NCBI RefSeq assembly: GCF_000423525.1 | Contig: NZ_AUID01000025.1 | Coordinates: 1-33,044, forward strand | Origin: Proteocatella sphenisci DSM 23131 | GTDB taxonomy: Bacteria; Bacillota; Clostridia; Peptostreptococcales; Filifactoraceae | Reading direction: 5' to 3' | DNA: 33,044 nt | Shown: positions 374-33,044 of the stretch, in pieces | How the letters are laid out: every line of letters begins with the position of its first letter | Numbering within the stretch: the stretch's first letter is position 1 | The notes under the pieces: generated by a model | Databases searched by the model: none | Seen by the model: only the letters and a program-made list of their open reading frames with translations | Told to the model about the DNA's origin: nothing | Program-made: the position numbers and the translations under genes

Positions 374-1522
374 TTATTTAAGAAGTTCTATAATTTCTTT
401 TATTTCACTGTCACTTCCGCTTATGTAGTCGAAAAAATTTTTAGATCTGAAATCCAGTTTTTCTTTGTTATAAAGATATATTCTTATAGTTATTTTCTCC
501 ATGAGCTTTTTTATTATATCTCTGACGGATATGAAAATTCTTACATCATTCAAAGTGCAAAAAAATCCCTCCTCTTTTTCTCCTGTAGCTATTATAGAAG
601 AAAAAATCCTTAAATCAGAATCTTTAACAGCTTTTAATCCTTTTTCTCTGTCAATTTTAATTAATGATTCCATAAGCTGACTCATGGCAAGATACTCTAT
701 GTTCTTGTTGCAGTATTTATTCACATATATCTCTCTCAAGACTTGTCTGTGCTCTGTAATTTCAGTGTTGTCGTTTAGAAGTTTTAGATAAAGGTCCTTC
801 AATTTTTTCTTGGCGCCAATATTAAGCTCCGACCTGAGTATATCATCACACTTTTTATACTGAGATATAGCCATATGTCTTTCTCCAAGTTTTATATATT
901 CAGTCATCAGATTATAATGACTTTCCTCGTCATATGGATTATGAAGAAGTATTTCTTCAAGTATTCCTACTTTTTCTTCATGCAGATGAGTATCCTTGAG
1001 ATTTATATAAATCTGATTAAGGCAAAGCGCATGGAGTTTCTGGTACTTGACTCTGTTTCCCAAAGTCCACTCATACCATTCATCTGCATCTTTTATGTTT
1101 AGTTGTTCTAAAAAATCACCTCGAAAAGCTTCTTTCATTCTAGTTAATTCATCCTGACTCATAGCTAAAAGTGACTTTTCTTCAAGTTTTTTTATTTTGA
1201 TAACATCAGAAGAAAACCTGTATTCCGGATTTATATAGCAGCACTCCTTGTTAGCTAGCACAAGACTTCTTCCCTCGTCATCTTTAGGAATTACTTTTTT
1301 TATATTCCAGAGATTATGCCTGAGATTGTTTCCTGAATTTTCGTATTTTTCTGACCATAGCAAGTCTGATATCTTATCTTTAGTTATCTTTTTGTTATAG
1401 TTTTCTACCAGATACATTACTATTGCTACAGACTTAGAGCTAAGCCTGGCACTTATATCCTCATTCTTATAGTATATTCCCGCATTACCAAGAAGATTTA
1501 TAATTAGCATGTCTTGTATCAT
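374..1522 (-). CDS. SARP/BTAD-type transcriptional regulator
   Basis: The 382-residue protein has an N-terminal winged-helix domain (about residues 5-90, including SSKSVAIVMYLVEN and ITKDKISDLLWSE) followed by a helical, TPR-like bacterial transcriptional activator domain (about 95-250, including DEWYEWTLGNRVKYQ and HNPYDEESHYNLMTEYIKLG). This is the DnrI/AfsR-type arrangement. Residues about 255-382 form an extension I do not recognise; no ATPase domain is present. The start ATG overlaps the stop of the upstream amidohydrolase by 4 bp (ATGA), so the two are translationally coupled and it probably controls that gene or its pathway. The ligand or signal is unknown. The stop lies 8 bp from a possible insertion-sequence end, so the extreme C-terminus could have been altered by the insertion. 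Confidence 0.8.
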   Translation of the reverse strand: MIQDMLIINLLGNAGIYYKNEDISARLSSKSVAIVMYLVENYNKKITKDKISDLLWSEKYENSGNNLRHNLWNIKKVIPKDDEGRSLVLANKECCYINPEYRFSSDVIKIKKLEEKSLLAMSQDELTRMKEAFRGDFLEQLNIKDADEWYEWTLGNRVKYQKLHALCLNQIYINLKDTHLHEEKVGILEEILLHNPYDEESHYNLMTEYIKLGERHMAISQYKKCDDILRSELNIGAKKKLKDLYLKLLNDNTEITEHRQVLREIYVNKYCNKNIEYLAMSQLMESLIKIDREKGLKAVKDSDLRIFSSIIATGEKEEGFFCTLNDVRIFISVRDIIKKLMEKITIRIYLYNKEKLDFRSKNFFDYISGSDSEIKEIIELLK

Positions 1523-3078
1523 ATAATCTCATCTCCATTTCTGGAATAAGTTATCTTGCCATCTTTAACTGTAATATCAACTAGTATATCCTTAATGTTT
1601 GGTGAACCGGCAAGTTCTATATCTGTGTCAAGTATGACCAGATCTGCCTTTTTCCCTTCAGATATGCTGCCTCTTTCATCTTCAGTATTTGTAGCATAAG
1701 CTGCATTGATGGTGAACATCTTTATTGCTTCTTTGAGGGTAACTGCATGATTTTTTTTGGGATGGTTCACTGCAGAATATATCCCTAAAATTGGGTCTAT
1801 CGGAGTGAGCGCACTGTCTGATCCCGCGCATATTACGATTCCTTCATCAAGTATCTGCCTGAACATATTGGTATTGTAGTGCCTGTCACCAAGAGATTCC
1901 TCGTAAAGCTCATTATACCCCTCATAGAGTCCTTTTTGAGTATTGCCCAGCAGAGTTTCAAATGCAGGTTGCATAGAAAGCACCAGCCCCAGTTTTTTTG
2001 TCCTTGTGATCTGATCTTGGCTCAAAAGTTCTGCGTGTTCTACTCTGTGTCTCAAATCCGTTCCCGGACACTTTGACTGAGCATATTCATGGGCCAGGAG
2101 AACTTGTTCAAAAGCCCTGTCTCCTACAGCGTGCAGACCTGTCTGAAGTGAATTTTTGTAACAGTCAAGTACAAGTCTGTTGAGTTCCTCCTGACTGAAA
2201 TAAAGATCTCCATTTCCATCTACGTCAGCATAATTTTCAAAAAGAGCAGCGTTTCTCGAAGTAAACGAACCGTCAACTCCAATATCTCCGCCTATCCTTT
2301 TCATTTTCCTCACCTTAATTTCATCAGTGTCAGTTATGCTGTAATATAGCTCTATCTTTACGGGAAGTTTTTTGGAAAACCTCAAAAACTTCTGATAATT
2401 TTCTCTTTCTCTTATCAGATTTGCCTCAATTGCCACAATAGTAGTAAGTCCTTTGGAGAGAACTTTTGTATTTATATATTCCTTTATCATGTTGCATTTT
2501 TCTTCAAAAGTATACAGATTCATTATCTTGTTTTTTGCATACGAATTTGCCTCATGTTCAAGGACTCCTGTAATAATCCCATTTTCATCTATCTGTATTC
2601 CATTCATACTAAATGGAACTTTTATAAGTTCCAGAGCTCTTGAATTCACTATACTTTTTTGAAGGTCACGACTAGCTATCCAAATAGGATAATGCGGACA
2701 CATTTTATCAAGTTCTCTTCTAGTTGGCAGTCTTCTTTCCTCAAGAGTATGATAGTGAAGAGAAAGACCCATTATGATCTTTTTATCCGGCCTTGCATCC
2801 CTAAGTTCCCATAGTTTTTTCTCTATGTACTCAAAATTAACAGCTTCGCTGAAATCTATGTTGTTTTCATTTATTACAGTTTCATCCAGGTGTACATGGC
2901 TGTCATAAAATCCCGGCAAAAGACTCCTGCCTTTTAAATCTATAACTTCTTCATTGGTGTCTGAGTACTTTTCATATCCAGTTCCATATCCCAGGTCTGC
3001 AATTTTCTTGCCCTCAACCCTAAGCCAACTGTAGTTTTCTCCTTCAAAATTCATTATACTTCCATTTATAAATATCAA
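1519..3078 (-). CDS. YtcJ-like amidohydrolase (amidohydrolase family 3)
   Basis: About 519 residues. It is a metal-dependent hydrolase of the amidohydrolase superfamily, YtcJ/N-substituted formamide deformylase group. Visible landmarks are LPGFYDSHVHLDE with the metal-binding HxH near residues 61-63, HAVGDRAFEQVL, RHRVEHAELLS, and GSDSALTPIDP carrying the late metal/catalytic Asp. The real substrate cannot be read from the sequence. The start is chosen as the TTG at 3078: the purine-rich AGAGGTG lies 6 nt before it. The in-frame GTG at 3087 is itself part of that ribosome binding site and has none of its own. No signal peptide is seen, so it is cytoplasmic. It is the first gene of an operon with the BTAD regulator and has its own promoter at 3111-3139. 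Confidence 0.85.
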   Translation of the reverse strand: MIFINGSIMNFEGENYSWLRVEGKKIADLGYGTGYEKYSDTNEEVIDLKGRSLLPGFYDSHVHLDETVINENNIDFSEAVNFEYIEKKLWELRDARPDKKIIMGLSLHYHTLEERRLPTRRELDKMCPHYPIWIASRDLQKSIVNSRALELIKVPFSMNGIQIDENGIITGVLEHEANSYAKNKIMNLYTFEEKCNMIKEYINTKVLSKGLTTIVAIEANLIRERENYQKFLRFSKKLPVKIELYYSITDTDEIKVRKMKRIGGDIGVDGSFTSRNAALFENYADVDGNGDLYFSQEELNRLVLDCYKNSLQTGLHAVGDRAFEQVLLAHEYAQSKCPGTDLRHRVEHAELLSQDQITRTKKLGLVLSMQPAFETLLGNTQKGLYEGYNELYEESLGDRHYNTNMFRQILDEGIVICAGSDSALTPIDPILGIYSAVNHPKKNHAVTLKEAIKMFTINAAYATNTEDERGSISEGKKADLVILDTDIELAGSPNIKDILVDITVKDGKITYSRNGDEII

Positions 3079-14584: not shown

Positions 14585-16072
14585 TTATTGTCTTTTTAAT
14601 AGTGCAGTCACGACTTCTTTTATATCACTTCTCTCTGCCATAAGATTGTGAATAACTTCCTTGCCCTCAAGTTCTCTTAGCGGCCCAGGAATTTCAACTC
14701 CAGTTTTAGAGCTCAAAAGATCCAAAATTTCAAATTCAGACAGACCTGAAATATCCAGCCCCAGTGCTTCGCATACACTTGGTGCAAATTTGAAAGGGCT
14801 TGCTGTCGAGAGCACTATAGTCTTGCCAGGTAAATGAATTTCTTCGGCGGCGCTATAGGCTACTGAACTGTGGGTATCCATGAGATATCCGTACTTTTTA
14901 TATGTCTTATGAATGGTTTCTTGTGATAAAGCGTGACTTGAGCTGAACCCAATAAATATTTCCAGTTCTTTTTTTATCTTTTCATTAAATTTTTCATCAT
15001 CTCCGAAAATGCAATAAAAGCCTTGTTTTTCAAGCTGGTCCATCCACTTTGATACCATATTTGTGCTCGCCGATATATGATAAAGGAGTCTCTCCAGATT
15101 GCTTGAAATCAGTATGTCCATAGAAGGTGATGCGGTAAGAAGAAGTTGCCTTTTTTTGTTGTAGATGCCTGTTTGGAAAAAATCAGTCAAAACATCATTT
15201 TCATTTGAGGCACAAATCAGCCTGTATACAGGCAGCCCCATCTTTTTTGCGTAATATCCGGCAAGTATGTCCCCAAAATTTCCTGTAGGTACACAAAAGC
15301 TTACTTTTTCTCCCTCTTTTATCTCGCCTCTTGCAACAAGTTCTGTGTATGAATAAAAATAGTATGCAATCTGCGGAATGAGCCTTCCAATATTTATAGA
15401 ATTTGCGGATGAGAAATCCAAATTGTCTTTCATAAGTAATTCTCTAAGTTTTTTATCTGCAAACAAGTCTTTTACAGCGCTTTGAGCATCATCAAAATTC
15501 CCATTTATGCCTATCACATTTACGTTACTTCCCTCTTGTGTTATCATTTGTCTCTTTTGTATATCACTTACTCCATTTTGAGGATAAAGCACAACTATTT
15601 GTATATCTTTTTCATATGTATCTTTATTTGAAAAAGCTTCCAGTGCCGCTTTTCCCGTGTCTCCTGATGTCGCAGCCAGTATGACAGTATTGTTTGAATC
15701 AATTTCTATTTCTTTTGATTTTCTGACAAGATGCGGTAATACAGAAAGTGCAAAGTCCTTGAAAGCACAAGTTGGGCCATGATATAGCTCCACAACATTA
15801 AAATCGCCCGCCTTCTTGATAATAACTGGAGGATTCTCGCTAAATTTGCTGTATGCCATTTCTACCTGCTCTGAAATACCTATTTCTGGAAAAAAACTAC
15901 TTAAGACTTTGTTGCACACGTCGCTATAATTATCCATTTCCATGCATTCTTTGTATATATTCTCAAACTTTTCAGGAACGTAAAGCCCCCCATCACTTGC
16001 AATTCCATGTATTATAGCTTTTGATCCACTTACTCTTTCTTTGTCATTTCTTGTGCTGAAAAATTGAGCCAT
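14585..16072 (-). CDS. thrC: Threonine synthase
   Basis: The 495-residue PLP enzyme converts O-phosphohomoserine to threonine. The PLP lysine is Lys105 in HGPTCAFKDFALS, and the cofactor phosphate loop is AATSGDTGKAA. The N-terminal STRND and SDGGLYVPE are typical of the long E. coli/yeast-type threonine synthases, and the length fits them. GGAGAAG precedes the ATG at 16072. It is the first gene of thrC-thrB. The leader is only about 50 nt and shows no T-box or attenuator, so no threonine-responsive RNA control is visible. Confidence 0.95.
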   Translation of the reverse strand: MAQFFSTRNDKERVSGSKAIIHGIASDGGLYVPEKFENIYKECMEMDNYSDVCNKVLSSFFPEIGISEQVEMAYSKFSENPPVIIKKAGDFNVVELYHGPTCAFKDFALSVLPHLVRKSKEIEIDSNNTVILAATSGDTGKAALEAFSNKDTYEKDIQIVVLYPQNGVSDIQKRQMITQEGSNVNVIGINGNFDDAQSAVKDLFADKKLRELLMKDNLDFSSANSINIGRLIPQIAYYFYSYTELVARGEIKEGEKVSFCVPTGNFGDILAGYYAKKMGLPVYRLICASNENDVLTDFFQTGIYNKKRQLLLTASPSMDILISSNLERLLYHISASTNMVSKWMDQLEKQGFYCIFGDDEKFNEKIKKELEIFIGFSSSHALSQETIHKTYKKYGYLMDTHSSVAYSAAEEIHLPGKTIVLSTASPFKFAPSVCEALGLDISGLSEFEILDLLSSKTGVEIPGPLRELEGKEVIHNLMAERSDIKEVVTALLKRQ

Positions 16073-21564: not shown

Positions 21565-22641
21565 TTAATCCAGATATCCCATGTTTTTTATAAGCTCCGC
21601 AGTCAAAAGTGCTCCGCCTGCTGCACCCCTTAGAGTATTGTGAGAAAGACATACAAACTTATAATCAAATATTGTATCTTCCCTCAGCCTGCCTATAGTC
21701 ACAGCCATCCCCTTTTCTAGATCTGCATCAAGCAAGGGTTGAGGCCGGTTGTCTTCTTCCATATAATTCAGGAATTTTTTTGGAGCCAGCGGAAGGTTCA
21801 TATCTGCTATTGCAGTCTTGTAATTTTCCCATCTTTCCAGAATCTGTTCTTTAGACGGTTTTTTTGCAAATTTTACCGCCACGGTTGCCATGTGTCCATC
21901 GAGCACCGATACCCTTATGCACTGAGCACTTATAACCGGTTTTAAGGCATTTACAATCTTTCCATCTTTTACCTGCGCCCATATCTTAAGAGGTTCTTTT
22001 TCACTTTTTTCTTCTTCTCCTCCAATATAGGGTATAACGTTTCCTATCATTTCTGGCCACTGGTCAAATGTCTTTCCACTTCCAGATATAGCCTGATAAG
22101 TACTTACCATAACCTGGTCTGGTTCAAATTCTTTGAGCGCATCAAGTGCTGGTACATAGCTCTGTATTGAGCAATTTGGCTTTGCAACTATAAAACCTTT
22201 TTTTGTTCCCAGCCTCTTTTTTTGTACATCCAAAATGTGCAGCTGATCCTTGTTTATCTCTGGGATAAGCATTGGTACATCAGGTGTCCATCTATTTGCA
22301 GAGTTGTTTGATACAACAATTATCTCTTTTCTCGCATAGGCTTCCTCAATTTTAACTATTGCCTCCGAGTCAAGATCCAGTGCACAAAGTACTAATTCTA
22401 CATCTTTGCCCACGGTTTCAAAGTCGCTTACATCCTCCACCACCATATCTTTTACATATTCTGGTATTTTTTTATCCAGCTTCCATTTGCCTTCTACAGC
22501 ATCTGAATATTTTTTCCCTTTAGAATTAGGACTTGCTGCAAGGACTTTTACCTTGAAATAGGGATGGTCTTCAAGCAGAGTCAAAAATCTCTGCCCTACC
22601 ATTCCTGTTGCTCCAAGTACGGCTATATTGGTTTTTTTCAT
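21565..22641 (-). CDS. asd: Aspartate-semialdehyde dehydrogenase
   Basis: The 358-residue enzyme reduces aspartyl phosphate to aspartate semialdehyde with NADPH. It has the N-terminal nucleotide loop VLGATGMVGQRFL (8-20), SNNSANRW, the catalytic Cys157 in VAKPNCSIQSY, and the catalytic base region in the C-terminal half (SVLDGHMATVAVKF). SIQSY after the cysteine and the roughly 355-residue length place it in the archaeal/fungal-type Asd branch rather than the E. coli-type. The ATG has AAAGGGG upstream. It follows hom by 45 bp without a terminator and is the last gene of the SAM-regulated operon, which then contains all steps from aspartate to homocysteine. The product also feeds lysine/diaminopimelate synthesis. 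Confidence 0.94.
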   Translation of the reverse strand: MKKTNIAVLGATGMVGQRFLTLLEDHPYFKVKVLAASPNSKGKKYSDAVEGKWKLDKKIPEYVKDMVVEDVSDFETVGKDVELVLCALDLDSEAIVKIEEAYARKEIIVVSNNSANRWTPDVPMLIPEINKDQLHILDVQKKRLGTKKGFIVAKPNCSIQSYVPALDALKEFEPDQVMVSTYQAISGSGKTFDQWPEMIGNVIPYIGGEEEKSEKEPLKIWAQVKDGKIVNALKPVISAQCIRVSVLDGHMATVAVKFAKKPSKEQILERWENYKTAIADMNLPLAPKKFLNYMEEDNRPQPLLDADLEKGMAVTIGRLREDTIFDYKFVCLSHNTLRGAAGGALLTAELIKNMGYLD

Positions 22642-22686: not shown

Positions 22687-23664
22687 TTACAGTTTTTCTG
22701 CAATGGCAAATATGTCGCTGACTACAGCACTTGCTGTAGGTCTTGAACCGGCTCCCGCTCCCTGGAGCATTATCTCGCCTGCGTTGTCACAGGTTATATA
22801 TACTGCGTTCATGGCCCCGTCAACGTTTGCAAGAGAGTGGTCCTTACTTATTTCTAAAGGAGAAACTGATACCCTGACTCCATCTCTACATTTTTCAGCC
22901 TGGGCTATAAATTTTATGGTATTGGCATTTTCTCTGGCTTTATTTATATCTGAAATGCTAACTCCTCTTATACCGGTTCTTTTTATATCATTTAAATCTG
23001 GCATGATATTAAATGCCAGTTTTGAAAGTATTGCAATCTTGTACATGGCATCATAGCCTTCAACGTCAGATGTAGGGTCTGCTTCTGCAAATCCAAGTTC
23101 TTGTGCCTTTTTAAGGGCAGATTCAAAGCTCTGGTTTTCATTCATCATCTTGCTGAGTATATAATTTGTAGTTCCGTTGATAATCCCTGATATCTTTTGT
23201 ATCTCATTTGCCACGAGTGAATCCTCAATCACTCTTATTACAGGAATAGTTCCTGCAACGCTGGCCTCATACATAAAAGACACGCCTTTTTCTCTTGCCT
23301 TGTCTTCTATTGATCCTCCAGACATGGCTATAGCCATCTTGTTTGCAGTTACAACATGTTTTCCGGCTTCAATTGCCTGCTCCATATATTTTGAAGCTGG
23401 CTCCTGGCCACCTATTAACTCTACTACTATCTGGATCTGCGGGTCATTTATTATCTGTGCATAATCATCTGTCAGAATTGCTTTGTCTACTCCATAGTCC
23501 TTGTCTGTATTTCTCACAAGAATTTTCTTGATTTCTATTACTTTTTTCTCACCTGTTTTTTCAAAAAGCTTCTGACTTAGCTGGTCTTTTTTCTCTTCTA
23601 ATATATTCTTTACTCCGCTTCCTACGGTTCCAAGTCCGAGCAAAGCTATCTTAACAGTCTTCAT
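22687..23664 (-). CDS. hom: Homoserine dehydrogenase without ACT domain
   Basis: About 325 residues. It reduces aspartate semialdehyde to homoserine. The N-terminal dinucleotide fold has ALLGLGTVGSGV and VTANKMAIA. The catalytic half has IINGTTNYILSKM and GFAEADPTSDVEGYDA. The protein stops at GSRPTASAVVSDIFAIAEKL, where most bacterial enzymes (about 400-430 residues) continue into a regulatory ACT domain, so threonine feedback through that domain is absent. The start chosen is the ATG at 23664, with GGAGGAGAG just upstream. The in-frame ATG at 23679 lies on that binding site and inside the upstream gene. Only 1 bp separates it from the stop of the metA-aspartokinase fusion. Confidence 0.93.
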   Translation of the reverse strand: MKTVKIALLGLGTVGSGVKNILEEKKDQLSQKLFEKTGEKKVIEIKKILVRNTDKDYGVDKAILTDDYAQIINDPQIQIVVELIGGQEPASKYMEQAIEAGKHVVTANKMAIAMSGGSIEDKAREKGVSFMYEASVAGTIPVIRVIEDSLVANEIQKISGIINGTTNYILSKMMNENQSFESALKKAQELGFAEADPTSDVEGYDAMYKIAILSKLAFNIMPDLNDIKRTGIRGVSISDINKARENANTIKFIAQAEKCRDGVRVSVSPLEISKDHSLANVDGAMNAVYITCDNAGEIMLQGAGAGSRPTASAVVSDIFAIAEKL

Positions 23665-23665
23665 T

Positions 23666-25468
23666 TTACTCTCCTCCATTTATTATCGTCCCTGTATCTT
23701 GTGGTTTGTTGGTATTTTTAATATTTATTGGTATCTCGGCTTTGGCTACAGGCCTTATTGCATCTGGGTGATATACCTGGGCGCCGTTTTTTGTTATATC
23801 CAAAAGCTGGTCGTAAGTCAGGGTATCTATGGTCATGGCATCTTTTTGCTTTTTAGGGTCTGCTGTCATTACTCCGCTTACATCTGTCCAGTTTTCATAC
23901 ATGAATGCACTTATTCCATTGGCTATTATGGAGCCGCTTATATCAGACCCTCCTCTTTCAAAGGTCTTTATGCTTCCCTTATGGTTGGACCCATAAAAAC
24001 CAGGAATTACAACTTTATCTTCTGGAGATATCTTTCTTCTTATTTCTGAATAGGTCTTTCCTTCATCGAGCTTTCCTTCTTCATCAAAAAATATAAGGTC
24101 TTTTGAATCAATAAAATCATAGCCTAGATAATCAGCCATTATCACCGCGCTCAGATATTCTCCCCTGCTTATAACAAAATCTCTGTCACTTGAATCTCTG
24201 AGCTGATCTGTAACTTCCTTTATCTCCCGTTTTGATTTACTGGTAACTCCAAGCTCATCGCATATTTCTTCAAATCTTTCTTCTATCTGGCAGATTACCT
24301 TCTCTTTTTCTTTTATAAGTAAAACTTCTTTTTTCTTAAGCTCTCTTATCTGGTCTCTTACCCTTTCTTTCACAGTCTGTATATTATGGGTATACCCCAG
24401 CATATCTGTCACCTTTACGTCTCCATCATACCTCTTGCCCGGAGCCGATACCACTATATAGTTTCTGTCATTTTGCGAAAGTATTATATCTTTTACCTTG
24501 TTAAACTGTGATGCATCAGAAAGTGAAGTCCCGCCAAACTTTGCGACTATTTTTTTGCTTATGTTATCTATATCATAAGGCGTCTCCTGATATACGCAGT
24601 AATTGAGCCAGTTGCTGAAAAACAGGTTTCCGTGAGACTTCCATCTGACCATTATTTCTTTTTCGGAATCATCATTTCTATAATAGTTTGCAGGTAGCTC
24701 CGTTTCTTTCCCGTTTGCAAGGTCTCTTTTGTATTCTTTGTCGATTGTATCTTCGTCGTACTCACTGTGTCCTGATACAAATATCAATCTGTTATCTCTG
24801 GTCGCCGCCAGGTGTACGCCTGCATCATCTGATCTTGCTATTATATCCAGGTCTTCTATTTTTTTAATATCTTCTTCTTTGCAATAGGTGTATCTCGACT
24901 GAGGAGCATAGAAATATTTATCAAACCCTCTTGTCAGGACATTATCTGCAATTACTTCATTTTCGAATATGCCCGACAGTTTTTTGTCCATTTGATGTTT
25001 TTCTACTCCGTAATAGTGGTAAAGAGCGGCCTGAGATGCCCAGCATATGAACATGGTCGAATAGACGTGTTCTCTTGCATAGTCCATTATTTCCTTGAGT
25101 TCTTCCCAGTAACTGACCTGAGTGTAGTCAAGTTTTTCGACTGGAGCCCCTGTAACTATCATTGCATCATATTTACTGTCTTTTATCTCATCAAATGTCT
25201 TGTAAAACTTCTCCAGATGTTCCCTGCTTGTGTTTTTACTCTCATGAGAGCTGGTTCTTATCAGGTCTACATTAACTTGGAGGGCTGTATTTGAAAGCAT
25301 CCTAAGGAGCTGTGTCTCTGTTTCTATCTTGGTGGGCATAAGATTTATTATCGCTACTCGCAGCGGCCTTATGTCTTGAGTCTGAGCCCTGGTTTCATTC
25401 ATTACGAAAATCTTTTCTTTTGTCAGAATCTCTTTTGCTGGCAAATCATATGGTATTAATACTGGCAC
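23666..25468 (-). CDS. metA/lysC: Fusion: homoserine O-acyltransferase + aspartate kinase
   Basis: One uninterrupted 600-residue frame. Residues 1-about 300 are MetA: nucleophile Cys142 in FICWASQAALYHYYG, and His234 and Glu236 in VSGHSEYDED. Position 111 is Glu (GAPVEKLDY), the residue that marks acetyl-CoA use, where E. coli succinyltransferase has Gly. Residues about 305-600 are an aspartate kinase catalytic domain: KFGGTS at 310-315, VVSAPGKR, FVISRGEYLSA, TFERGGSDISGSIIA and TDVSGVMTADPK. The protein ends at NTNKPQDTGTIINGGE, exactly where aspartate kinases normally enter their two ACT domains, so lysine/threonine feedback sites are missing. The start is GTG at 25468, with AGAGGTG upstream. 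It is second in the metY operon. The protein would carry out the first step of the aspartate pathway and the committed step to methionine. Confidence 0.93.
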   Translation of the reverse strand: MPVLIPYDLPAKEILTKEKIFVMNETRAQTQDIRPLRVAIINLMPTKIETETQLLRMLSNTALQVNVDLIRTSSHESKNTSREHLEKFYKTFDEIKDSKYDAMIVTGAPVEKLDYTQVSYWEELKEIMDYAREHVYSTMFICWASQAALYHYYGVEKHQMDKKLSGIFENEVIADNVLTRGFDKYFYAPQSRYTYCKEEDIKKIEDLDIIARSDDAGVHLAATRDNRLIFVSGHSEYDEDTIDKEYKRDLANGKETELPANYYRNDDSEKEIMVRWKSHGNLFFSNWLNYCVYQETPYDIDNISKKIVAKFGGTSLSDASQFNKVKDIILSQNDRNYIVVSAPGKRYDGDVKVTDMLGYTHNIQTVKERVRDQIRELKKKEVLLIKEKEKVICQIEERFEEICDELGVTSKSKREIKEVTDQLRDSSDRDFVISRGEYLSAVIMADYLGYDFIDSKDLIFFDEEGKLDEGKTYSEIRRKISPEDKVVIPGFYGSNHKGSIKTFERGGSDISGSIIANGISAFMYENWTDVSGVMTADPKKQKDAMTIDTLTYDQLLDITKNGAQVYHPDAIRPVAKAEIPINIKNTNKPQDTGTIINGGE

Positions 25469-25490: not shown

Positions 25491-26765
25491 TTATGCTTTT
25501 AATGCCTGATCCAGGTCTTGGAGTATGTCGTCTATATTTTCAATACCTACTGAAAGCCTTATCATGTCAGGCTTTATTCCTGCCTGAAGCTGTTGGTCCT
25601 GTGAAAGCTGTCTGTGAGTCATGCTCGCCGGATGAAGCACGTGGGTTCTTATGTCTCCTACGTGTACTACCAGGCTGGCAAGTTTAAGGTTGTTTATGAA
25701 TTTTTTTCCAGATTCGACTCCGCCCTTTACTCCAAAAGATATTATTCCACTGGCTCCCTCAGAAAGATATTTTTTAGCAAGCTCATAACTTTGTGATGAT
25801 TCCAAAAGTGGATAATTTACCCATGAAACATTTGGATGATTTTCAAGGAATTTAGCTGCTGCAAGTGCATTACTGGAGTGCCTTTGCATTCTTAATGCAA
25901 GCGTCTCGACTCCAAGGTTTGTAAGGAATGCATTAAATGGACTCATAGTGCTTCCCATATCTCTTAAAAATGCTACTCTTGCTTTTGTTATATAGGCGGC
26001 CTCTCCAAATTTTTCTGTGTAGCTGATTCCATGATAACTTGGGTCTGCTTGTGTAAGATGAGGGAATTTTTTGCTTGATTTCCAGTCAAATTTTCCACTG
26101 TCTACTATTATTCCACCTACACTGGTTGCGTGACCATCAATATATTTTGTAGTCGAATGCGTAATTATATCAGCTCCAAATTCAAAAGGTCTGCAAAGAT
26201 ATGGAGTTGCAAATGTATTATCCACTACCAGCGGTATCTTATTGTCATGAGCTATTTTTGCAATTCTTTCGATGTCTAGAACATCAACGCCTGGATTTCC
26301 TATTGTCTCTCCAAATATCAGCTTTGTATTTAGTTTTATTTGAGACTGGATTTCTTTTTCATCCGCTCTGTGATCTACGAAGGTAACCTCTATTCCCATT
26401 TTTTTCAAAGTAGAAGTAAACAGCGTAAATGTTCCTCCATAAAGATTTGACATTGCAAGCAAGTGTTCTCCCGCATTACATATAGTTAAAACAGATATAA
26501 GCGTTGCGGCTTGTCCAGATGAAGTAGCCAGGGCCCCAACTCCGCCTTCCATTTCAGCAATTTTATTTTCAAAAGCCTCCACGGTAGGGTTACTTATTCT
26601 TGAATACATATGACCTGCCGCCTCAAGATCAAACAATTTTCCTACTTCATCTGCGTCATCGTATTTATAGGTTGTTGACTGAAATATTGGCAGTATTCTC
26701 GGTTCTCCATTTTTAGGTTTATATCCGCTTTGTATACATTGTGTCTCTCTTGCATATTTTTTCAT
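25491..26765 (-). CDS. metY: O-acetylhomoserine sulfhydrylase
   Basis: About 424 residues, a Cys/Met-metabolism PLP enzyme that makes homocysteine from O-acetylhomoserine and sulfide. The PLP lysine is in [18 protein letters not shown] (residue 207 from the chosen start). Also seen are [35 protein letters not shown] and the C-terminal [13 protein letters not shown]. Its length and the long insertion after TKYIDGH match MetY rather than MetB/MetC. The start is taken as the ATG at 26765. A GTG at 26777 is also in frame but is part of the AAAGGTG binding site. It is the first gene after the SAM riboswitch. Its pairing with an acetyl-type MetA 22 bp downstream is consistent with direct sulfhydrylation. 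Confidence 0.93.
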
Positions 26766-26829
26766 TTTAGTTTTCACCTTTCTGTAATTAATAATTATGT
26801 TTTATATTTAGTGCAGCTAAAATATGGTA

Positions 26830-26859: not shown

Positions 26860-26883
26860 ATAGTAAATTTCTATTAGGCTACA

Positions 26884-26976
26884 CTCATCTTTCAGACATT
26901 TCTGTCTGCTGGAATTAGCACTAGCTTTCGCTTTGCCGGGTTTCTAAGGGCCAGTCCCTCCACCACTCTCGATAAG
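26884..26976 (-). promoter_or_regulatory. SAM-I (S-box) riboswitch aptamer
   Basis: On the minus strand CTTATC (26971-26976) opens P1 and pairs with GATGAG (26884-26889). Between them are the S-box core segments GAGAGTGGTGGAGGGA, CTGGCCC, AGAAACCCGGCAA and a P4-like hairpin CAGACAGAAATGTCTG. With the terminator at 26830-26859 and the alternative antiterminator, this is a transcriptional OFF switch: SAM binding stabilises P1 and releases the terminator. It controls metY, metA/lysC, hom and asd. Confidence 0.96.
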
Positions 26977-27026
26977 TTTGTTTGTTCTTGATATTCAATT
27001 GTATTTTCTGGAGCATCGTTTTGTAT

Positions 27027-32567: not shown

Positions 32568-32570
32568 AAT

Positions 32571-32683
<113 letters not shown>

Positions 32684-32773
32684 ATTTTTAATATAAAATT
32701 ATATTAGATGGATGTACCATCAAAACTGCAAACCAATGTAAAGTTTTCACTTTTTCATTCCAGGTAAAAATTA

Positions 32774-33044
32774 TGGTCAAGTCCTCGATCTATTAGTACT
32801 CATAAGCTACATACATTACTGCACTTACACCTTGAGCCTATCAACCACGTAGTCTTCATGGGATCTTACTCCTTACGGATGGGAAATCTTATCTTAAGGG
32901 TGGCTTCGTGCTTAGATGCCTTCAGCACTTATCCATTCCGCACATAGCTATCCAGCTGTGCCACTGGCGTGACAACTGGTGCACCAGCGGTGCGTCCAAC
33001 CCGGTCCTCTCGTACTAAGGTCAGCTCCTCTCAAATTTCCTACG
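32774..33044 (-). rRNA. rrl: 23S ribosomal RNA, 3' end (partial)
   Basis: The last about 270 nt of 23S on the minus strand. The sarcin-ricin loop region (AGTACGAGAGGACCGGG) is at about 33000-33016, and the typical 3' end CGAGGACTTGACC is near 32774. The rest of the gene lies outside the window. The spacer to 5S is about 90 nt and holds no tRNA. Confidence 0.95.

Follow-up and report, generated by a model that had tools for sequence, protein, structure and literature searches.

A homoserine O-acyltransferase fused to an ACT-less aspartate kinase in a predicted methionine operon of Proteocatella sphenisci and its relatives

Aspartokinase is a classic example of an enzyme under feedback control through ACT domains. 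On a contig of Proteocatella sphenisci DSM 23131 (NZ_AUID01000025.1; the whole stretch of 33,044 nucleotides is called the window here), an aspartokinase without these domains shares one chain with the homoserine O-acyltransferase MetA, and the question arises what such a chain is for and whether it is a protein of the organism at all. A sequence-only reading had described the frame as a complete MetA joined to the catalytic domain of an aspartate kinase, coupling two steps that are not adjacent in the pathway. Both statements held: MetA and aspartokinase lie in one chain, and the uninterrupted frame of 600 codons contains two full-length Pfam domains, HTS (model positions 1-298 of 298; 441.5 bits, cut-off 27) and AA_kinase (1-234 of 234; 115.5 bits), separated by a short linker (Table 1). 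The frame runs from a GTG at 25468 to a TAA at 23668-23666 and has no internal stop; an AGAGGTG stretch upstream of the start was noticed by eye. Pfam detected no ACT domain in the 600 residues, and the frame stops after the kinase domain. With a thin alignment of six rows, structure prediction reached a mean pLDDT of 59.4; the model was good in the kinase half only and too poor for a judgement on how the two domains pack.

Table 1. Features of the fusion gene and its operon in the window
Feature	Position	Strand	Description and evidence
SAM-I (S-box) riboswitch aptamer, operon head	26882..26978	minus	Rfam RF00162, 74.5 bits (gathering 44.4), model 1-108 of 108
metY, O-acetylhomoserine sulfhydrylase	25491..26777	minus	428 aa; NCBIfam TIGR01326, 618.4 bits, cut-off 495.1
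metA::ask fusion gene	23666..25468	minus	600 aa, GTG start; one open frame, two complete Pfam domains
MetA (homoserine O-acyltransferase) half, residues 2-298	24575..25465	minus	Pfam HTS; residues; solved chains 2h2w, 2ghr
Linker, residues 299-304	24557..24574	minus	Short gap between both Pfam matches
Aspartate kinase catalytic half, residues 305-585, no ACT	23714..24556	minus	Pfam AA_kinase, 3tvi alignment, motifs
hom, homoserine dehydrogenase	22687..23679	minus	330 aa; Pfam NAD_binding_3 and Homoserine_dh only
asd, aspartate-semialdehyde dehydrogenase	21565..22641	minus	358 aa; NCBIfam TIGR00978, 355.5 bits, cut-off 301.2

The trivial explanation of such a gene is an assembly or frameshift artefact, and a stop or frameshift near residue 300 had been named as the observation that would speak against the fusion. 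Homologues, however, read through the same junction. The protein of genome G001 is 57% identical and spans it (query 12-597), the spacing between the motif TPY or TPF and KFGG is 14 residues in all 23 intact ACT-less fusions examined (of 36 found), and the junction recurs in many independent assemblies, some of the fusions being placed on long contigs (G744:C1, 813 kb; G710:C1, 1.9 Mb). Because the homologues run through this junction, chance read-through and assembly error were ruled out, and we give the artefact practically no weight.

Mapping chains with MetA followed by a kinase across taxa, as the sequence-only reading had proposed, revealed a recurrent arrangement. In four families, 36 genomes in all were found to carry the ACT-less form: the window's own family contributes 2 of its 11 genomes, family f42 contributes 29 of 120, family f2 four (among the matches listed from 393 genomes of the order) and family f121 one (among 348 genomes of the phylum). 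A longer form, MetA::kinase::ACT with 751-824 aa, occurs in at least 44 genomes of family f10. Its ACT label comes from Pfam in three rows, the domain being present in 3 of 3 scanned, and from BLAST to an ACT reference in the remaining rows of the 44; Pfam found no ACT in 8 of 8 scanned relatives of the ACT-less form. Of the 36 ACT-less fusions, 23 entered the trees, residue comparisons, linker measurements and gene tallies, and 15 the Rfam scans. Two damaged genes were seen as well, a split fusion of family f10 with frames of 457 and 317 aa (G291, L078:5108-7389, minus), which was excluded from the kinase counts and retained in the MetA rows, and a broken fusion gene with fragmented frames (G860, L194, about 1367-3040, plus). 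Two candidates were dismissed: the long frame of G480 (652 aa open) looks like a MetA frame overlapping metY, the search having named no second domain, and G462 has a plain MetA.

The entire N-terminal half resembles stand-alone MetA (HTS; NF047918). The best solved relatives, 2h2w and 2ghr, are stand-alone chains, those matched being 301-312 aa long, whereas the fusion carries the kinase at its C-terminus. Cys142, His234 and Glu236, singled out already from the letters, were recovered on the alignment; we take them to be the catalytic Cys, His and Glu of MetA. Together with Glu111 they are present in all 109 MetA rows aligned, and a Glu at position 111 is presumably the mark of the acetyl-CoA-type MetA. 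The NCBIfam model MetA_acetyl (NF047918) scored 458.4 bits on the fused chain, 2 bits short of its cut-off of 460.5. Glu111 and the neighbouring metY, coding for an O-acetylhomoserine sulfhydrylase, predict a preference of the MetA half for acetyl-CoA.

For the second half the best solved relative was the aspartokinase 3tvi (446 aa). The match covers residues 5-276 of 3tvi, which is the catalytic part, and as it stops at residue 276, only this part is kept in the fusion. The earlier statement that the kinase half ends where its ACT domains would start is borne out by this match and by the missing Pfam ACT; KFGGTS begins at Lys310 on the alignment, as had been read. The best NCBIfam kinase match of the fusion was NF006540/PRK09034, while the general aspartokinase model TIGR00657 reached 170.1 bits against a cut-off of 208.7 and matched over model positions 2-284 of 442 only. 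The fusion shares catalytic domain and motifs with the clostridial-type aspartokinases (NF006540/PRK09034; 3tvi), but is without their ACT domains and diverged in the stretch 556-567. In all 23 ACT-less fusions examined the motif columns KFGG, SAPG, SRGE, RGGSD, TDV and DP are identical. Of 85 columns near-invariant among 17 stand-alone ACT kinases (at least 16 of 17), the window kinase agrees in 70; five distant kinase rows (407-409 aa) were omitted from this residue comparison and from the quick tree described below. Fifteen near-invariant columns are kept in less than half of the 23 ACT-less fusions, and eight of these fifteen fall in 556-567, where 2 of 10 near-invariant columns survive. 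The stretch may have served ACT-dependent control; against this counts that the f10 fusions, which kept ACT, are relaxed as well at 559, 560, 561 and 566 (kept in 26, 23, 27 and 19 of 44).

The loss of ACT and the altered stretch 556-567 would fit an allosteric relay, in which methionine or SAM acting at MetA turns the fused kinase down in place of ACT and feedback from the methionine branch reaches the first step; the one linker spacing in 23 of 23 fusions may then reflect a geometric constraint. The partial relaxation of 556-567 in the f10 fusions argues against such a relay, and the ACT-less kinase lineage exists also without MetA, as separate genes in family f7 (L069, L079) and with homoserine dehydrogenase in G006. 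MetA is thus not needed to replace ACT, and we consider the relay unlikely.

Behind the SAM-I riboswitch, metY, metA::ask, hom and asd follow on one strand, the fusion being the second of four genes, and the frame of hom overlaps the 3' end of metA::ask. Homoserine dehydrogenase is not part of the fusion chain but encoded by this separate gene, and its product had no Pfam ACT match. By this content the steps from aspartate to homocysteine are all present in one run, and by the riboswitch upstream the operon is predicted to belong to the methionine (S-box) regulon.

We regard the fusion as probably a bifunctional, methionine-dedicated aspartate kinase/homoserine O-acetyltransferase that is freed from feedback by lysine and threonine. 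The kinase half would make aspartyl phosphate, which Asd and Hom of the same operon would convert to homoserine; the MetA half would acetylate homoserine, and MetY would then form homocysteine. Methionine status would set the output, by the SAM riboswitch in the window and by methionine T-boxes in relatives, and the fusion would keep both enzymes at a 1:1 ratio. Since the ACT sensor is absent, lysine and threonine should no longer shut the kinase off; this insensitivity and the two enzyme activities are predictions from sequence. ACT domains also help aspartokinases to dimerise, hence their loss could harm the kinase activity. Channelling between the halves is unlikely, because two enzymes act between the kinase and the MetA steps.

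The dedication to methionine is not strict in the genome that contains the window (2.41 Mb in 45 contigs). A second, ACT-bearing aspartokinase is located on another contig, and a dapB match is present. The hom gene of the operon is the sole Homoserine_dh match in the assembly, thus the operon should also feed threonine. Elsewhere on the contig of the operon were found a threonine synthase gene, thrC (14762-15808, minus; 243.9 bits, TIGR00260 cut-off 167.1), and, at the contig end, the 5S rRNA together with the end of the 23S rRNA (32568-33044, minus).

Methionine-type leaders were detected with Rfam at 14 of the 15 ACT-less loci scanned, two SAM-I riboswitches (window and L053) and twelve T-boxes. 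Six T-boxes exceeded the gathering score of 93 bits (L063, L065, L066, L123, L124, L129) and six were below it (L121, L122, L125-L128; 77-91 bits, E 2e-18 to 6e-15); at L064, no Rfam match was obtained in the roughly 290 bases available before the contig end. An ATG stands in the sequence GAA-N-ATGG, which we take to be the place of the T-box specifier codon, in all 13 T-boxes aligned, those of twelve fusion loci and of the unfused-metA locus L154. The T-box lies immediately 5' of the fusion gene in L123, L125, L126 and L127. Directly upstream on the same strand is metY in 10 of the 15 loci, and hom and/or asd follow directly downstream in 6 of 15; both numbers may be too low owing to the homology cut-off. 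Leaders were also present at 6 of 9 scanned loci with an unfused metA (SAM in L054, L061, L062, L069 and L079; T-box in L154), while Rfam revealed neither a SAM nor a T-box leader in L055, L151 and L152. Such leaders do not distinguish the fusion from an unfused metA; what the fusion adds is a kinase behind them. In family f10 none of the 9 loci scanned had a SAM or T-box leader above the gathering score, so that RNA control by methionine is not a property of all MetA::kinase fusions; one scanned locus of family f50 likewise had neither of them over the gathering scores.

The history of the fusion was followed in trees of both halves. In a quick kinase tree a single branch (SH-aLRT 100) split 26 ACT-less from 61 ACT-bearing kinases; a careful tree with the five distant kinases added gave the same split at 86/85, with the root not fixed among these. 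The 26 comprise 23 MetA-fused kinases, two free-standing ones of family f7 and one joined to homoserine dehydrogenase (G006). In the MetA tree, the ACT-less fusions are distant from those of f10, which form a group with a MetA::homoserine dehydrogenase fusion (97/94). A single origin of all MetA::kinase fusions, enforced as one MetA clade, was rejected (AU p 6e-44), therefore such a fusion arose at least twice. One MetA clade of the ACT-less fusions together with G031, G002, G082 and G864, a group named post hoc, was weakly rejected (AU p 0.03). The constant 14-residue spacing suggests a single ACT-less fusion event, yet the MetA halves do not fall cleanly together; the ACT-less fusion may have had one origin, with MetA replacement, or several origins.

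Unfused MetAs of three genomes, G031, G082 and G002, form a group with the MetA of the window (100/89). That of G031 (L061:4096-5067, plus) is 80% identical to it and has the C-terminus KKVVDKFEGRSLSDAT followed by a stop. Eleven of these 16 residues match the start of the window's kinase (score 52; none of 20000 shuffles scored as high), and this resemblance makes it probable that a fusion gene in G031 lost its kinase half. The MetA tail of G002, NKVFK, was inspected as a possible kinase remnant.

In family f7 (L069, L079), metY, metA, an ACT-less ask and hom are separate genes in this order. Between metA and ask-hom lies a 34-codon frame rich in Thr and Met, MINVNTTTTMTTSMPTMDTMCTTVTMTGNFKQPK (L069:6961-7065, plus, with its counterpart in L079); 3' of it, inspection by eye showed a hairpin resembling a terminator, with a run of T, near 7242-7272 of L069. 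Frame and hairpin are a candidate threonine/methionine attenuation leader. In G006 the ACT-less kinase is joined to an ACT-less homoserine dehydrogenase (L055:5537-7219, minus; 560 aa) and its first part is missing; the 7.3 kb contig also holds a separate kinase-start fragment after metA. A MetA::homoserine dehydrogenase fusion, which unites enzymes adjacent in the pathway, was found in genus g196 in 2 of the 11 f50 genomes, with 763 aa in G630 (L130:4635-6926, minus) and split over contigs in G430 (pieces in L190-L192).

Adjacent methionine genes may simply become joined by loss of a stop, with co-expression as the only consequence and no benefit from the one chain. The separate genes of f7 resemble a layout shortly before the fusion, MetA was fused to homoserine dehydrogenase too (G630, G430), and the kinase half could be lost again (G031), all of which agrees with a neutral event; the occurrence of the ACT-less form in four families (36 genomes), its uniform linker spacing among the 23 fusions examined, and the second MetA::kinase origin in f10 (AU p 6e-44 against one clade) do not. 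We hold a neutral operon fusion to be possible, though doubtful.

The kinase half could also be a decaying or catalytically dead appendage of a chain in which MetA alone matters, as its loss in G031, with the tail KKVVDKFEGRSLSDAT, and the broken gene of G860 might indicate. The identity of the catalytic motifs in all 23 intact ACT-less fusions contradicts this, and so do five of the 23 genomes, G033, G145, G868, G815 and G939, in which no aspartokinase besides the fused one scored over the cut-off. Motif conservation and sole-kinase genomes together disfavour a dead kinase half, which we judge very unlikely. In none of these five genomes was a dapB match obtained; dapB was missing also in 7 of the other 18. 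The simultaneous lack of dapB and thrC over the cut-off was observed in four of the five (G033, G145, G868, G815) versus none of the 18 others (Fisher p 0.0006, ignoring kinship, G033 and G145 sharing a genus), whereas G939 has thrC. The fusion gene is followed by hom and asd in three of these genomes (G033, G145, G868), and as dapB and thrC were not found, methionine is suggested as the only product of the pathway. No homoserine dehydrogenase match was obtained in G939 (93% complete) and G815 (81% complete), so the pathway looks incomplete there, unless the assemblies are.

Fusions of aspartokinase are well known. ThrA and MetL are bifunctional aspartokinase-homoserine dehydrogenases (NCBIfam PRK09436, PRK09466), MetL being a methionine-repressed form. 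Like these, metA::ask joins an aspartokinase to another enzyme of the pathway, but the kinase is C-terminal, the partner is an acyltransferase and the regulatory domain is absent. The aspartokinase/diaminopimelate decarboxylase (PRK08961) likewise combines the first step with a later branch step, that of the lysine branch and not, as here, of the methionine branch. The f10 form has the same order of MetA and kinase, but a separate origin on the MetA tree; it kept ACT and has a TPY/TPF to KFGG spacing of 26-28 residues (measurable in 32 of 44, the other 12 rows having no TPY/TPF motif) versus 14 in the ACT-less form. No description of a MetA::aspartokinase fusion appeared among the papers listed by searches of open PMC full text, though domain-architecture databases may list it. 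The parts are known; what appears new is the type of aspartokinase fusion and, as predicted from the genes, an ACT-less, methionine-linked lineage of aspartokinases.

For annotation, such chains may carry the name of one half only. The fusion offers a direct test of the purpose of joining non-adjacent enzymes. If the relay were true, the acyltransferase would take the seat of the regulator and pass methionine or SAM status straight to the first step of the pathway. As the probable bifunctional, methionine-dedicated enzyme, the fusion bears on methionine production, where release from feedback is a usual aim: an aspartokinase that is ACT-less, tied to methionine through both RNA switches and fusion, and sometimes the only one found in its genome would be a natural feedback-free kinase.
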